A model generated the notes under the pieces. The model was not told where the DNA came from, did not search any database, and saw only the letters and a program-made list of their open reading frames with translations. A stretch of DNA of 64,000 bases, taken from the NCBI RefSeq assembly GCF_020025155.1, contig NZ_CP073751.1, positions 1,798,001 through 1,862,000 of the forward strand. The letters run 5' to 3'. The translations under genes and the position numbers were made by a program. This stretch comes from Halopseudomonas nanhaiensis. GTDB taxonomy: Bacteria; Pseudomonadota; Gammaproteobacteria; Pseudomonadales; Pseudomonadaceae. Below, in pieces: positions 29,886 to 61,637 of this stretch; position 1 is the first letter of the stretch; every line of letters begins with the position of its first letter.

Positions 29886-29972
29886 TGGTGCCCGGAGCCG
29901 GAATCGAACCGGCACGGGGTTACCCCCGAGGGATTTTAAGTCCCTTGCGTCTACCAGTTTCGCCATCCGGGC
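29886..29972 (-). tRNA. tRNA-Leu (anticodon TAA)
   Basis: 87 bases including the encoded CCA. The acceptor stem begins GCCCGGA and pairs with the 3' end before CCA. The anticodon loop is CTTAAAA inside a GGGA/TCCC stem. A class II variable arm (CGGGGGTAACCCCG) and GGTTCGATTCC T-loop are visible. Confidence 0.96.
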
Positions 29973-29997
29973 TGACAGGTACCGTAACGCTGAATAA

Positions 29998-30071
29998 TGG
30001 AGGCCGAGGTCGGAATCGAACCGGCGTACACGGATTTGCAATCCGCTGCATGACCACTCTGCCACCCGGCC
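29998..30071 (-). tRNA. tRNA-Cys (anticodon GCA)
   Basis: 74 bases including CCA. Acceptor GGCCGGG, D arm, GGATTTGCAATCC anticodon stem-loop with GCA, and GGTTCGATTCC T arm. It is 25 bases upstream of tRNA-Leu in the direction of transcription. Confidence 0.96.
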
Positions 30072-30082
30072 TCTAAGGGGGC

Positions 30083-30109
30083 TGTCAGACCGGTGACACC
30101 GGTCTGACA
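30083..30109. repeat. Near-perfect 27-base palindrome between tRNA-Gly and tRNA-Cys
   Basis: TGTCAGACCGGTG and CACCGGTCTGACA (13-base arms) are separated by one base. It lies in the 44-base spacer of the tRNA cluster. In RNA it would form a tight hairpin and may guide tRNA processing, or mark a partial terminator; no T tract follows. Confidence 0.7.
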
Positions 30110-30115
30110 CAATAC

Positions 30116-30191
<76 letters not shown>

Positions 30192-32682: not shown

Positions 32683-33327
32683 TCAATTGGGTGCGGCGTC
32701 AACCATGCCGTGTCGCACGGCCAGCAAGGTGAGCTCTACGTCGCTGGTAATGCCCAATTTCTCGAAAATGCGATAGCGGTAGGTGTTGACGGTCTTGGGG
32801 CTCAGACACAGCTTGTCCGAAATGCTCTGGACCTTCTCGCAGCCAACGATCATCAGCGCGATCTGCATTTCGCGGTCGGACAGCGCATCGAACGGGCAAT
32901 CGCTGGAGGAGTCGTAGAGTTTGGATATCAGCAGCTGCGCGACGTCGGGACTGATGTAGCGCTGACCGGCCGCCACCTTGCGAATGGCGGTGACCATTTC
33001 GTCAAGGGCTGCGCCCTTGGTCACATAGCCCGACGCGCCGGCCTGCATCAAGCGGGTCGGAAAGGGTTCTTCGTCGCAGACGGTGACGGCGATAATCTTG
33101 ACGTGCTTGTCGTGCAGCGAGATCTTGCGTGTCGCTTCCAGTCCACCGATGCCGGGCATCCGGACATCCATCAGCACCACGTCTGGCTTGAGCTTGCGCA
33201 CCTGGTCGAGAGCCGATTCCCCGCAATCAGCCTCGCCGACGACGGTCAGGCCCGGCACATCGCTCAACATGCGGGAGATGCCCATGCGCACCAGATCATG
33301 GTCATCAACCACGAGTACCTTGATCAA
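32683..33327 (-). CDS. gacA: Response regulator GacA (UvrY family)
   Basis: The 214-residue LuxR-type regulator has D54-type phosphoacceptor in [12 protein letters not shown] receiver residues (VTVCDEE; VTKGA) and a C-terminal helix-turn-helix ([18 protein letters not shown]). It is very like P. aeruginosa GacA from end to end. The start is taken as TTG 33327: AAGGGG lies six bases upstream, and the product then begins at [10 protein letters not shown] as in GacA. Another TTG at 33345 would place that Shine-Dalgarno inside the gene. Phosphorylated by GacS, GacA switches on small RNAs that titrate RsmA/CsrA. A likely target RNA is at 60985-61170. Confidence 0.95.
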
Positions 33328-57202: not shown

Positions 57203-59308
57203 CTATCCGGTGCGACGGTCCGACTCGGTCGCGCCTGGACTGCTCTGATCGAGCATCTGCGCCACCCTGTTCGCCAGCACATCAAGGCTGAAGGGCTTGG
57301 TCAGGAGCTGCATGTGAGGCCCCAAAAAATCGGCCTGGGCGCGGGCACTTTCGGCATAGCCGGTGAGGAAGAGTACCGGCAGCCTTGGCCGCAACTGCTG
57401 GATGACTTCCGCCAATTGCCGACCGTTCATGCCTGGCAGGCCCACATCGGTGACAAGCAGATCGACCCGCTTCAGCGCGTGAAAGCATTCCAGCGCCTCA
57501 TCGCCATCACGCGCTGCACACACTTCATAGCCCAGCTCTTCGAGTACTTCCTGATTAATCAAACGCACCGAGTCGTCGTCTTCGACCAACAGAATCGACT
57601 GTCCCTTGCCGGAGACCGTGATGTCTCCCGCCAGTCGCGTGGCGACTTCGAGCTTGGCATGCACCGGGAGGGACATCGACACAGTGGTCCCGACGTCCGG
57701 CACACTTTCGATGGAGAGTCGCCCGTTGCTCTGCTGAGCAAAGCCGTAGACCATGGACAGGCCAAGGCCCGTACCCTGGCCGATCGGCTTGGTCGTGAAG
57801 AACGGCTCCATTACCTTGTTCAGCACCTGCTCGGGAATGCCGCAGCCGGTGTCCTCGACATCAATACGGACTTCGCCCGGCGCCTCTGCGCCTGATAGCG
57901 GCGGGCTCAGCAGACGCGTTCGCACTACCAGGGTGCCGCCATCGGGCATGGCGTCGCGCGCGTTGATGACCAGATTGAGTACGGCATTTTCCAGCTGATT
58001 GGCGTCCGCCAGAATCCAGGGATCGTCCGGACACAGATCGAGCCGGAGGACGATCTGCTCAGACACGGTCCGCTGCAGCAGGTCTTTCAATGATGCGACG
58101 AGATGATTGATTGCCAGCGGCTTGGCATCCAGCGGCTGGCGCCTTGAAAAGGCGAGCAGCCGTTGAGTGAGTCCTGCGGCACGCTGGGCTGAGCTTGTCG
58201 CGGCGTCCATGAAGCGCTCGACGTCATCGGGCTTGCCACTGGCAAGGCGCATCCTGATCAGGTCCAGCGCGCTGATGACGCCGGTGAGCATGTTGTTGAA
58301 GTCATGAGCAATCCCGCCGGTCAACTGCCCCACCGCCTCCATTTTCATCGACTGGCGCAGCTGCGCTTCGGCACGGGCGCGTTCGTCGCTTTCGGTCCTC
58401 AACTTCTCAATGGCTTCATTGAGCTGGCGGGTACGCGCCTCGACCTGAATCTCAAGCTCCTCGTTGAAGCGGCGCAGAGACAGTTCTGCCCGCTTCTCCT
58501 CGTTGATGTCGAGCATGACCGAAGCCGCACCAATGATCTGACGCTCCTCGTCGTACAGAGGAACCGCGCTTACTCGCATCCACGATTCTCCACCGTCTTC
58601 CAACATGTGGCAGAAATCAACGCCGTTCGAGGGCTCACCCCGCAGCGCACGAGCCCCCGGAAACATGTGGGGCTCGAGCCTCTTGCCCGCCGAGTCCAGC
58701 GCAACCCAACGAGCGCTGATTTCCGGCTCGCTGGAGGGAATGCGATCGCTGGGCAGATACCGTCGATAGAGCGGGTTACTGATGACCGAGCGCCCATCGG
58801 CATCCATGAAACTGATGCCAACGGGGACGTTCTCCAACAGGATACGCAGCCTGCCTCGCTCCTCTGCGAGTTCGGCCAGACGGTCACGCATGTCGAACTG
58901 GCGTTCCCGGGAACCCCACGCAGCGGCCACCGCGCTGAGCAGGGATGCCGAGCTCAGCGGCCGTTCCAGCACGATGACGTAGCCAGCGGATCGTGGCAGC
59001 CGGCGCCGAGCTGTTTCGGTATCGCGCCCGGAACGGCCGTTGTTGGAAGCCAGCAAAATGATCGGGATGTCAGACCAGCTCGGTTGCCGAGCCAAGGCCT
59101 CACCCAGAACGCCGACGTCACCGAGCAGGGCTTCTTCGGTCAGCATTATCAGCCCGGTTCCGGCGCCGAGGGCAGCTGCCAGCGAAGAAAGGTCGGGGTG
59201 GATTTGCAGCGAGTACTTGTCCCCGAAAAGCTTGGAAAGACTCTCCACGTCTCCCTTGAAAGGCGCAACGACCGACAGCGTTTTCGCTTCTGCTTGTCGC
59301 TCAGCCAC
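57203..59308 (-). CDS. PAS hybrid histidine kinase coupled to KaiC-like ATPase
   Basis: The protein has 701 residues: an N-terminal receiver-like domain without a clear phospho-Asp (about 8-130), PAS/PAC (150-275), coiled coil (275-325), HisKA with GGIAHDFNNML (H about 337), HATPase (GQGTGLGLSMVYGFAQQ) and a C-terminal REC with LLVTDVGLPGMNG and TKPFS. There are no membrane helices, so it is cytoplasmic. It overlaps the kaiC-like stop by eight bases, so the two are made together; the KaiC protein probably feeds signal or nucleotide state into the kinase. Confidence 0.88.
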   Translation of the reverse strand: MAERQAEAKTLSVVAPFKGDVESLSKLFGDKYSLQIHPDLSSLAAALGAGTGLIMLTEEALLGDVGVLGEALARQPSWSDIPIILLASNNGRSGRDTETARRRLPRSAGYVIVLERPLSSASLLSAVAAAWGSRERQFDMRDRLAELAEERGRLRILLENVPVGISFMDADGRSVISNPLYRRYLPSDRIPSSEPEISARWVALDSAGKRLEPHMFPGARALRGEPSNGVDFCHMLEDGGESWMRVSAVPLYDEERQIIGAASVMLDINEEKRAELSLRRFNEELEIQVEARTRQLNEAIEKLRTESDERARAEAQLRQSMKMEAVGQLTGGIAHDFNNMLTGVISALDLIRMRLASGKPDDVERFMDAATSSAQRAAGLTQRLLAFSRRQPLDAKPLAINHLVASLKDLLQRTVSEQIVLRLDLCPDDPWILADANQLENAVLNLVINARDAMPDGGTLVVRTRLLSPPLSGAEAPGEVRIDVEDTGCGIPEQVLNKVMEPFFTTKPIGQGTGLGLSMVYGFAQQSNGRLSIESVPDVGTTVSMSLPVHAKLEVATRLAGDITVSGKGQSILLVEDDDSVRLINQEVLEELGYEVCAARDGDEALECFHALKRVDLLVTDVGLPGMNGRQLAEVIQQLRPRLPVLFLTGYAESARAQADFLGPHMQLLTKPFSLDVLANRVAQMLDQSSPGATESDRRTG

Positions 59309-60797
59309 GCTGCCGCTCTTCCATCAGCGGGCGCTCCGCCCCGAAGTATTCGGGCGTTCCGGTCAGTACACCGCGGAAGTTCACCAGCGGCTCCCCGACA
59401 CGCACACCCTGAGAGTCGATGCGCAACTCCCGGATACCGTCTTCGTGCGCTCCCGCACGGTGCTTGAGCACCGATATGGCCTTGCGCAACCGACCCTGCG
59501 CTTCGAAAAAGCGTATCAACACTACGGAATCGGCGACGTAGGAGATTTCCAGATTGGTAATCATCGAGCCCAGCAGACCATGTTGAGGGTTGATCAGAAA
59601 GGTGACCACCCCCCGCTGACTTAGGTACGACAGCAACTCGTGCATTTGCAGAATGAGTTGTTGTTCCTGCGGCATGGCTGCCATGTAGCCATTGAGGCTG
59701 TCCACGACGATCATGGCGCACTGACGCTTTTCTACCTCGGAGCGTACCCGCCATGCGAACTCCCCGGGCGAGATCTCTGCAGGGTCGATCTGCTGGATGG
59801 TCAGGTGGCCAGACTCCAGAAACTCGCTGAATCTCAAGCCCATGCTGTCAGCTCGGGCAATCAGCGTAGTGACACGCTCGTCGAACTCGTAAATCGTGCA
59901 GTTTTCGCCTCGAGCACACGCCGCTGCTACATAAACCAGCGAAAGCGTGGTCTTGCCTGCGCCAGCGGGACCGGTCAACAGCGTGCTGGTACCACGCATC
60001 GGGCCGCCGACCAGCAGGTCATCGAGTTCCTCGATGCCGCTCTTCACGGCTTCACCGGTAAACACCCCATGCTGACCGGCGGCGACCAGCCGCGGGTACA
60101 CTTCGAGGCCGCCAGGGCGGATGGTGAAATCGTGGTACCCGGCGACGAAGTCGACGCCACGCAGCTTCTGTACCTGCAAGCGTCGCCGCGCTGCGCCGAA
60201 ATCCAGCGTGAGCCGTTCGAGCGTTACCACGCCGTGACAGAGACTGTGGAGATGATTGTCGCGTTCGCCACCCGAGCCGGTGAGGTCATCGACCAGTAGA
60301 ACCGTGATGTCCCGTCCGGCAAAATACTGTTTGAGGGCGAGCACCTGGCGCCGATAGCGCAATGGATCCTGAGACAGCAGACGCATTTCTGACAGGCTGT
60401 CGAACACTAGCCGCTTTGGCTGGAGGGCATCGACTCGCTCCTGGATGAGCTTGATCGTGTTGCCCAGCTCGGCTTCCCAGGGATGCAGAATCGACTGCTC
60501 GTAGATTTCGCCGAGCGCCTCGTTCGTGGAAGCGAACTCGAAGAGGTTGATGCCGTCCAGGGTCCAGCCGTGGGAGGCAGCGACGCTCTCGAGCTCCTCT
60601 GCAGTTTCCGAGAGAGTGATATATAGAACCGGCTCGCCGGCGGCGACGCCCGTCATCAGGAACTGCAGTCCTAACGTCGTCTTGCCCGAACCTGGCGTTC
60701 CTTCAAGCAGATAGAGTCTGTTGCTGGGAAGTCCTCCTTTGAGGATTGTGTCAAAACCAGCATTACCTGTCGAAACGATCGGGCGCGATGAAACCAT
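59301..60797 (-). CDS. KaiC-family double RecA-type ATPase
   Basis: The 498-residue protein has two KaiC/RecA domains with Walker A motifs GTPGSGKTT (33-41) and GPAGAGKTT (276-284) and Walker B-like LVFDSLSE and MIVVDSLNG. In Synechococcus KaiC the autophosphorylated pair is S431-T432; the equivalent segment here reads EISYVADSV, keeping Ser but with Tyr for Thr. No kaiA or kaiB is in the window. Such KaiC proteins in non-cyanobacteria are linked to stress or biofilm signalling through a cognate kinase, which is the next gene. Start ATG 60797. Confidence 0.9.
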   Translation of the reverse strand: MVSSRPIVSTGNAGFDTILKGGLPSNRLYLLEGTPGSGKTTLGLQFLMTGVAAGEPVLYITLSETAEELESVAASHGWTLDGINLFEFASTNEALGEIYEQSILHPWEAELGNTIKLIQERVDALQPKRLVFDSLSEMRLLSQDPLRYRRQVLALKQYFAGRDITVLLVDDLTGSGGERDNHLHSLCHGVVTLERLTLDFGAARRRLQVQKLRGVDFVAGYHDFTIRPGGLEVYPRLVAAGQHGVFTGEAVKSGIEELDDLLVGGPMRGTSTLLTGPAGAGKTTLSLVYVAAACARGENCTIYEFDERVTTLIARADSMGLRFSEFLESGHLTIQQIDPAEISPGEFAWRVRSEVEKRQCAMIVVDSLNGYMAAMPQEQQLILQMHELLSYLSQRGVVTFLINPQHGLLGSMITNLEISYVADSVVLIRFFEAQGRLRKAISVLKHRAGAHEDGIRELRIDSQGVRVGEPLVNFRGVLTGTPEYFGAERPLMEERQRG

Positions 60798-60984
60798 GTA
60801 CTACCTCGTGCAGGAAATTTCGTACCGCCGGGGCGGTGACTCCTTTGAGTCAGTATGAATCGGAGAATCCTGCCTCGCCACCGAATTTTCGGTTGGACGG
60901 CTTCGAGCTGGACGCTACCCATGCGCTCCAACGGACCAATCAGCAGCGGACGGTGCACCGGTGGAACGCTATTTCGAACACCAG

Positions 60985-61013
60985 AAAAGAAAAAACCCCG
61001 CCGAAGCGAGGTT
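60985..61013 (-). terminator. Rho-independent terminator with UUCG loop
   Basis: On the minus strand, AACCTCGC-TTCG-GCGGGGTT (one T-G pair) is followed by TTTTCTTTT. This is a strong intrinsic terminator with a stabilising UUCG tetraloop. There is no coding gene upstream on this strand before 61383; it ends the RNA called at 60985-61170. Confidence 0.92.
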
Positions 61014-61170
61014 CTTTCAATATCTTGTTCATCCCTGAGGCTCGTCCATGACGCCCTGGCCAATCCCTGAACCAGCTTTACTGCTTCGTCCCTGATCATC
61101 CATGATGGGCATGCTCCCTGCCGCCCCCGCTTCGATCCATCTCCGCCGGCATCCTGCCTTGCTCCTGCAT
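60985..61170 (-). ncRNA. Probable Gac/Rsm regulatory RNA (RsmX/Y/Z-type CsrA/RsmA sponge)
   Basis: A minus-strand transcript of about 186 bases. It carries ten GGA motifs (complement positions 61163, 61152, 61142, 61136, 61115, 61099, 61089, 61064, 61045, 61032), most as CAGGA, CAGGGA or TGGA. Several would sit in hairpin loops: GGC-AGGAT-GCC, ATCAT-GG-ATGAT and CGTC-ATG-GACG. It ends in a UUCG-loop terminator. A -10 box TAATAT lies at 61181-61176, seven bases before the start. A GacA upstream box is centred about 65 bases upstream. Such RNAs bind RsmA/CsrA and release target mRNAs from repression. It lies on the same strand as, and 188 bases before, the KaiC operon. The family is clear by motif; the member (X, Y, Z or new) is not. 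Confidence 0.82.
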
Positions 61171-61225
61171 GACCAATATTAGGCAGTCCCCTGGTTCGGC
61201 AAAAGAGTCGTTTGCCGTCACGCCG

Positions 61226-61243
61226 TGTAAGCGATTGCCTACA
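61226..61243 (-). promoter_or_regulatory. GacA upstream activating sequence
   Basis: TGTAAG-CGATTG-CCTACA matches the GacA site TGTAAG-N6-CTTACA in 11 of 12 fixed positions, read on the plus strand (equivalently TGTAGG-N6-CTTACA on the minus strand). It is centred at 61234.5, about 65 bases before the predicted sRNA start (61170), where GacA boxes lie in rsm genes of pseudomonads. Confidence 0.88.
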
Positions 61244-61382: not shown

Positions 61383-61637
61383 ATGATCGGACTAAAAAAA
61401 TGGATTGCCCCTGCCGCTATCGTGCTTGGCGCGCTGAGCATCGCTGCATGCGATGTGGAACAGACTGAGGAAGGCAGCATGCCCGAAGTGGATGTTTCGG
61501 CAGAAGGTGGCAACATGCCGGAGTATGACGTTGAAACCGCCGATGTTGACGTAGGTACCAAAGAAAAGACTGTTGAGGTCCCCGACGTAGACGTCACCAT
61601 GCCGGATGAGCAGGAAGAGCGGCCCGAACAACCCTGA
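61383..61637 (+). CDS. Small acidic lipoprotein with VDV repeats
   Basis: The 84-residue protein starts at ATG 61383 (GGGAG six bases upstream). A lipoprotein signal ends LSIAAC-D (about residue 23). The mature part is acidic and built from repeated short units PEVDV, PEYDV, TADVDV, PDVDV spaced 10-15 residues apart. I know no function for it. It is divergent from the sRNA; the GacA box lies 140 bases upstream of its start, so the two share the intergenic region. Confidence 0.8.
   Translation: MIGLKKWIAPAAIVLGALSIAACDVEQTEEGSMPEVDVSAEGGNMPEYDVETADVDVGTKEKTVEVPDVDVTMPDEQEERPEQP

Follow-up and report, generated by a model that had tools for sequence, protein, structure and literature searches.

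Does the DNA between a kaiC-like gene and a divergent lipoprotein-like gene of Halopseudomonas nanhaiensis encode a regulatory RNA of the Gac/Rsm type, and if so, how did it come to lie there? The window, i.e., the whole stretch of DNA analyzed, comprises 64 kb (positions 1798001-1862000) of a 3.65-Mb single-contig genome (G000) and was compared with a set of 37 genomes of Halopseudomonas, the former P. pertucinogena lineage, which contains G000 itself and its sister genome, G011. An earlier note had described a minus-strand region of 186 bases with ten GGA motifs, a terminator with a UUCG loop, a TAATAT -10 box and a GacA box with 11 of 12 fixed bases about 65 bases upstream of the predicted start, and had read it as an RNA of the Gac/Rsm type, perhaps a separate family member. 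In the reading that we prefer, with a probability of roughly 0.87, the region codes for a sponge RNA of the Gac/Rsm type derived from a duplicated rsmY; the duplication probably dates to an ancestor shared by G000 and G011. The relevant features are compiled in Table 1.

Table 1. Features of the candidate sRNA gene, its neighbors and gacA (window positions)
Feature	Position	Strand	Remarks
GacA box (upstream activating sequence), TGTAGG-N6-CTTACA	61226..61243	-	11 of 12 fixed bases; aligns with those of 18 other copies
-10 element TAATAT	61176..61181	-	aligns with the -10 of relatives
Predicted sRNA, ~186 nt	60984..61169	-	10 GGA; 5' end placed from the -10
Intrinsic terminator	60984..61018 (stem 61018-60989)	-	13-pair stem, TTCG loop, T-rich tail
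kaiC-like ATPase gene	59301..60797	-	~190 bases downstream of the sRNA; neighbor in G011 too
PAS/hybrid histidine kinase gene	57203..59308	-	after kaiC
Small acidic lipoprotein-like gene	61383..61637	+	divergent; lipoprotein by eye; matched in 4 of the 37 genomes
gacA, UvrY/SirA/GacA family response regulator	32692..33327	-	303 bits (cut-off 280); expected activator
tRNA-Leu, -Cys and -Gly genes	29886-30191	-	~2.5 kb downstream of gacA

All parts named in the earlier note were recovered at these positions, as was the setting between a kaiC/kinase operon and the gene for an acidic lipoprotein. Read on the minus strand from 61243 to 60984, the GacA box is followed by 44 bases, TAATAT, the GGA-rich stretch and the UUCG terminator, and the ~65 bases from the center of the box to the predicted start are the usual distance for Gac/Rsm sponge RNAs. 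The box (TGTAAGCGATTGCCTACA; TGTAGGCAATCGCTTACA on the minus strand) is the single site in the window with at most one mismatch to what we take to be the GacA box consensus, while 0.01 such sites are expected from shuffles; 18 other copies match the same consensus with at most one mismatch. The open reading frames listed across the sRNA region look spurious, and the region was taken as intergenic.

Could GGA-rich intergenic DNA simply lie between a box that arose by chance and a terminator that has nothing to do with it? Several of the parts, taken singly, are indeed within the reach of chance. One terminator was found where 0.9 are expected in shuffles, so that the terminator alone is unsurprising. 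The 150-nt core contains 10 GGA motifs against a shuffled mean of 7.1, a count reached by 88 of 1000 shuffles, and windows of 186 nt with at least 10 GGA form five clusters on the two strands, the sRNA region included and two of them mutually overlapping; the GGA count as sole evidence for an sRNA was therefore rejected. Furthermore, a simple sigma-70 scan did not list the sRNA promoter and found no -35 match, its sole site lying at 60773-60745. The arrangement of the motifs is more telling. Nine GGA can be placed in the loop of a hairpin with a stem of at least three pairs (mean 3.2; 0 of 1000 shuffles), and four in the loop of one with at least four pairs (mean 1.3; 35 of 1000 shuffles). The RNA folds with a z of -1.9 (6 of 200 shuffles fold equally well), and the minimum-energy fold does not bury all the motifs, as six of the ten GGA have at least two of their three bases unpaired, but only one lies inside a hairpin loop. 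It is the combination of the parts at the right spacing, together with homology, that leads us to judge the sRNA gene as real.

This homology was assessed with two promoter models. R1 was built from 19 copies, the window copy among them, and was applied to the genus at E ≤0.01. R2, designed to be less circular, is a leave-out model of 14 sequences, all from genomes other than G000 and G011; its scan covered eight sources, two of which duplicate places in others. The window copy is the sole match of R2 in the window at E ≤1 and reaches 49.2 bits (E 3.9e-14) with a model that is independent in sequence, its selection not being blind because the loci were first picked by similarity to the window region, many via the terminator. 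R2 scored 41.7 bits for a copy next to kaiC in G011 and 18.5 bits (E 1.5e-4), over the first 66 of 97 positions, for a further unit of G000, the island copy. Given the scarcity of the box, the R2 result and the related copy in front of kaiC in G011, we regard a chance assembly of the parts as extremely improbable.

At the gathering cut-offs of the Rfam models (57 bits for RsmY, RF00195; 56 bits for rsmX, RF02144; 44 bits for RsmZ, RF00166), only three tRNAs were found in the whole window. When the scan was run with an E-value setting, the window copy scored 29.7 bits with RsmY and 28.0 bits with rsmX, both below the cut-off; istR and other matches seen at this setting were set aside as they match chiefly via the terminator. 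At a loose E-value of 10, matches also appear in control genomes, in 13 of 14 for RsmY and in 11 of 14 for rsmX, all of them below cut-off; what counts is therefore the ranking rather than a match as such. In the genome of H. nanhaiensis, the first three ranks for RsmY are held by three Gac-type units (42.3, 33.7 and 29.7 bits, the window copy being third; next place 22.7), and the same three lead with rsmX (36.2, 28.0 and 25.9 bits), where the margin of the window copy, here second, over an unrelated place at 24.7 bits is small. Searching the genome with the window region returned three further places, 814504, 384630 and 2704155. The first is a terminator just behind a coding stretch; 384630 and 2704155, the island copy, are full units with box, GGA motifs and terminator. 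By its homologous promoter and 5' region, the window copy belongs to the RsmY lineage, and the ranking together with the leave-out homology supports the assignment to the Gac/Rsm type.

The distribution of rsmY in the genus shows which of the three units holds the conserved locus. An rsmY-type gene is present in 37 of 37 genomes. With R1, 35 of them have a single match each, while G000 has three and G011 two; extra copies are thus confined to these two. That R1 detects rsmY follows from the loci that pass the Rfam RsmY cut-off, 11 of 20 within and 6 of 9 outside the genus. The former come from a scan of 20 conserved-locus genes out of 37. Nine stay below the cut-off, namely all seven long genes scanned, among them those of G000 (42.3 bits) and G011, and 2 of the 13 short ones; Rfam's RsmY threshold hence misses the longer genes of this genus and a few short genes. 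The latter derive from a scan of 390 genomes of the order with R1 at a threshold of 1e-4, where filters lose weak matches and 12 genomes, G000 among them, gave a match; the six RsmY loci scored 90.7-128.8 bits, and the other three loci matched no Rsm family. In 36 of the 37 genomes, a relative of an acyl-CoA dehydrogenase gene lies beside the rsmY locus, which in G001, G033 and G005 is a 91-residue match only, ~1.2 kb off; in G021, none was found within the stretch examined around rsmY. Since this conserved place is occupied in H. nanhaiensis by G000:C1:384630, the window copy is a paralogue. It shares with RsmY (RF00195) the homologous promoter, an equal spacing of GacA box and -10, a similar 5' start and the UUCG terminator, but it lies before kaiC instead of beside the acyl-CoA dehydrogenase gene, its ~186 nt with 10 GGA exceed the 117-137 nt with 6-8 GGA of 24 of the 37 genus rsmY genes, and its Rfam score stays below the cut-off.

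RsmZ was found in 36 of the 37 genomes; in 34 of these it exceeds the cut-off. In G000, the cut-off is passed once, at 2765226-2765354, and hence not by the window copy; judged by their first residues, the flanking genes look like mutS and groEL, the mutS side presumably matching the rsmZ neighborhood of P. aeruginosa. As both RsmZ and the conserved-locus rsmY are found elsewhere in the genome, the suggestion of a separate member is borne out insofar as this is a gene of its own, whereas a new family is less apt than an RsmY-derived paralogue. In another genome of the genus, two over-cut-off RsmZ matches lie ~270 bases apart on one strand (G007:C1:487927-488464), likely a tandem duplication of rsmZ.

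The genome thus holds a unit whose parts and spacing are those of a sponge RNA gene and whose promoter is homologous to that of rsmY, along with gacA, one csrA gene (CsrA by NCBIfam), rsmZ and rsmY. From the parts of the gene and the established Gac/Rsm pathway, we infer that phosphorylated GacA would act at the box and elicit transcription from the TAATAT promoter, that the sRNA would end at the UUCG terminator and that its exposed GGA sites would bind CsrA/RsmA, taking the protein off its mRNA targets. The window RNA would then raise the titration capacity beyond that provided by RsmY and RsmZ. In this way, the gene would extend a global regulatory system of Halopseudomonas by an unannotated member.

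Its position raises the question whether the RNA is mainly a leader or a local regulator for the downstream kaiC-kinase operon. It lies on the same strand, ~190 bases ahead of kaiC in G000, and adjoins kaiC in G011 as well; however, the terminator intervenes before kaiC. In addition, kaiC is present in 8 of the 37 genomes (E ≤1e-100), and a box with at most three mismatches precedes it in G000 and G011 only. At kaiC of the remaining six genomes, R1 matched nothing; the G019 locus ends 624 bases before the gene. A general linkage of RNA and kaiC was rejected, as it is confined to two sisters, and a primary role in the control of the operon appears very unlikely to us. The kaiC loci of G023, G015 and G022 are 100% identical to records of Pseudomonas profundi M5, Pseudomonas saliphila and Halopseudomonas laoshanensis Y22, respectively, and that of G019 to a Pseudomonas metagenome assembly record. 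On the other side of the sRNA gene, the box is nearly palindromic and lies 140 bases before the divergent lipoprotein-like gene, for which no Pfam match was obtained; we propose that GacA might act on that gene also.

Most likely, then, the window copy is a duplicated and diverged rsmY. G000 and G011 are sisters with a support of 100/100 in an acyl-CoA dehydrogenase tree that includes 33 of the 37 genomes, and the simplest account would be a duplication of rsmY to the place before kaiC in their common ancestor, followed by rearrangement. The gene next upstream of the extra copy is the lipoprotein-like gene in G000 and a histidine kinase gene in G011, where the lipoprotein gene sits elsewhere in the genome; in P. 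profundi the lipoprotein gene precedes kaiC and the RNA is absent there. BLAST finds the window copy 67-68% identical to both G011 copies from box to terminator, with equal scores (64.4 bits) for the kaiC-linked copy and rsmY; for the 3' end of the window copy, the best match is the island copy (87% over 47 bases). Two separate insertions may therefore have taken place instead.

A descendant of rsmY may also be a decaying duplicate that has lost its expression or its relevance. The kaiC-linked copies have diverged faster than rsmY (75.5% vs. 92.3% whole-gene identity between G000 and G011, the alignment of the RNA body being uncertain), and extras occur in just two of 37 genomes. A neutral simulation was not rejected: it revealed no significant selection on GGA number (P 0.098) and none on GGA position (5 kept, 4.5 expected). 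On the other hand, box, -10, spacing, 10 GGA and terminator are all kept in the kaiC-linked copies of both G000 and G011. We consider decay unlikely, though less so than the alternatives weighed above, and favor a duplicate that would still serve as a sponge RNA.

Extra Rsm copies are precedented in P. brassicacearum, P. syringae and Azotobacter; the kind is thus known, and the window gene is new within it. A close parallel is rsmX (RF02144), in particular rsmX-2 of P. brassicacearum, according to the excerpts of the source an extra copy with a mutated box and lower expression that still depends on GacA (PMC7911923). Like it, the window copy would be an additional GacA-controlled sponge RNA made by duplication, with a few mutations in the box; it differs in scoring lower with rsmX than with RsmY (28.0 vs. 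29.7 bits) and in not being in tandem with its parent. Up to five rsmX genes are mentioned for P. syringae (PMC7911923, PMC7366521). A table names RsmY1-2 and RsmZ1-7 of Azotobacter vinelandii (PMC7366521), likened here by description only as a case of multiple RsmY and RsmZ copies per genome. Equally by description, the csrB duplications of Vibrio tasmaniensis (PMC6262261) resemble our case as sibling sponge RNAs, although genus and RNA family are others. In the open-licence literature, which lacks most subscription papers, we found no paper on Halopseudomonas and rsmZ, and in the matches listed there the words Halopseudomonas and GacA co-occur only once or a few times.

While the window copy is a largely familiar kind of gene, the self-repeating rsmY of some relatives is more unusual. 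Forty units were considered, the 37 conserved-locus genes and the three extras, with approximate lengths that assume a constant distance from the box; 34 were measured by script, and the remaining six, whose terminators the script missed, are short by eye, with a T-run within ~250 bases of the box start. The seven long conserved-locus genes measure 194 nt in G000 and 195 nt in G011 (11 GGA each), 268 nt in G030 and 284 nt in G013 (18 GGA each), 353 nt in G023 (L176; 22 GGA, 2.3 module copies), 433 nt in G015 (L173; 28 GGA, 3.3 copies) and 511 nt in G020 (L008; 36 GGA, 4.3 copies). For comparison, excerpts of PMC11882849 count 22 GGA in CsrB of E. coli and 25 in the Pf1 RNA of Pseudoalteromonas. 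For G023, G015 and G020, which group together with a support of 99/99 in the acyl-CoA dehydrogenase tree, Tandem Repeats Finder reports a period of 80-81 among other rows. As read from its repeats, rsmY is here a tandem array of ~80-nt GGA-hairpin modules in which relatives differ by one module; the G020 assembly is a single contig, whereas those of G015 and G023 consist of several dozen each. Nine modules were read by hand; all of them can fold into three hairpins, and 26 of the 27 loops carry GGA. In a covariation analysis, 135 of 135 pair cells were paired, compared to at most 54.5% when slid, for a structure drawn from the same sequences; no pair had changed on both sides and all shuffles equaled the observed values. 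Among the listed matches in the open-licence literature, judged mostly from the listing itself, we found no description of tandem rsmY arrays.

Taken together with the extra copies, the arrays invite the tentative idea, to which we give slightly less than even odds, that rsmY of this genus may be a plastic dosage device that is copied to new places and, in G023, G015 and G020, lengthened by modules of ~80 nt, with tandem duplication setting the number of RsmA sites per transcript and the window copy as one outcome. More GGA sites would be expected to mean more RsmA bound, and the stepwise series would allow a direct test of RsmA sites per RNA against the response.

The third unit of H. nanhaiensis (G000:C1:2704155; L148:3656-3870) is ~136 nt long and has 10 GGA. 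Plasmid records contained no match to either the window copy or the island copy, and phage records yielded seven matches to the latter, all inside its terminator. The island copy is located among four integrase-family genes and umuD/umuC-like genes, surroundings that suggest a mobile island carrying an Rsm RNA.
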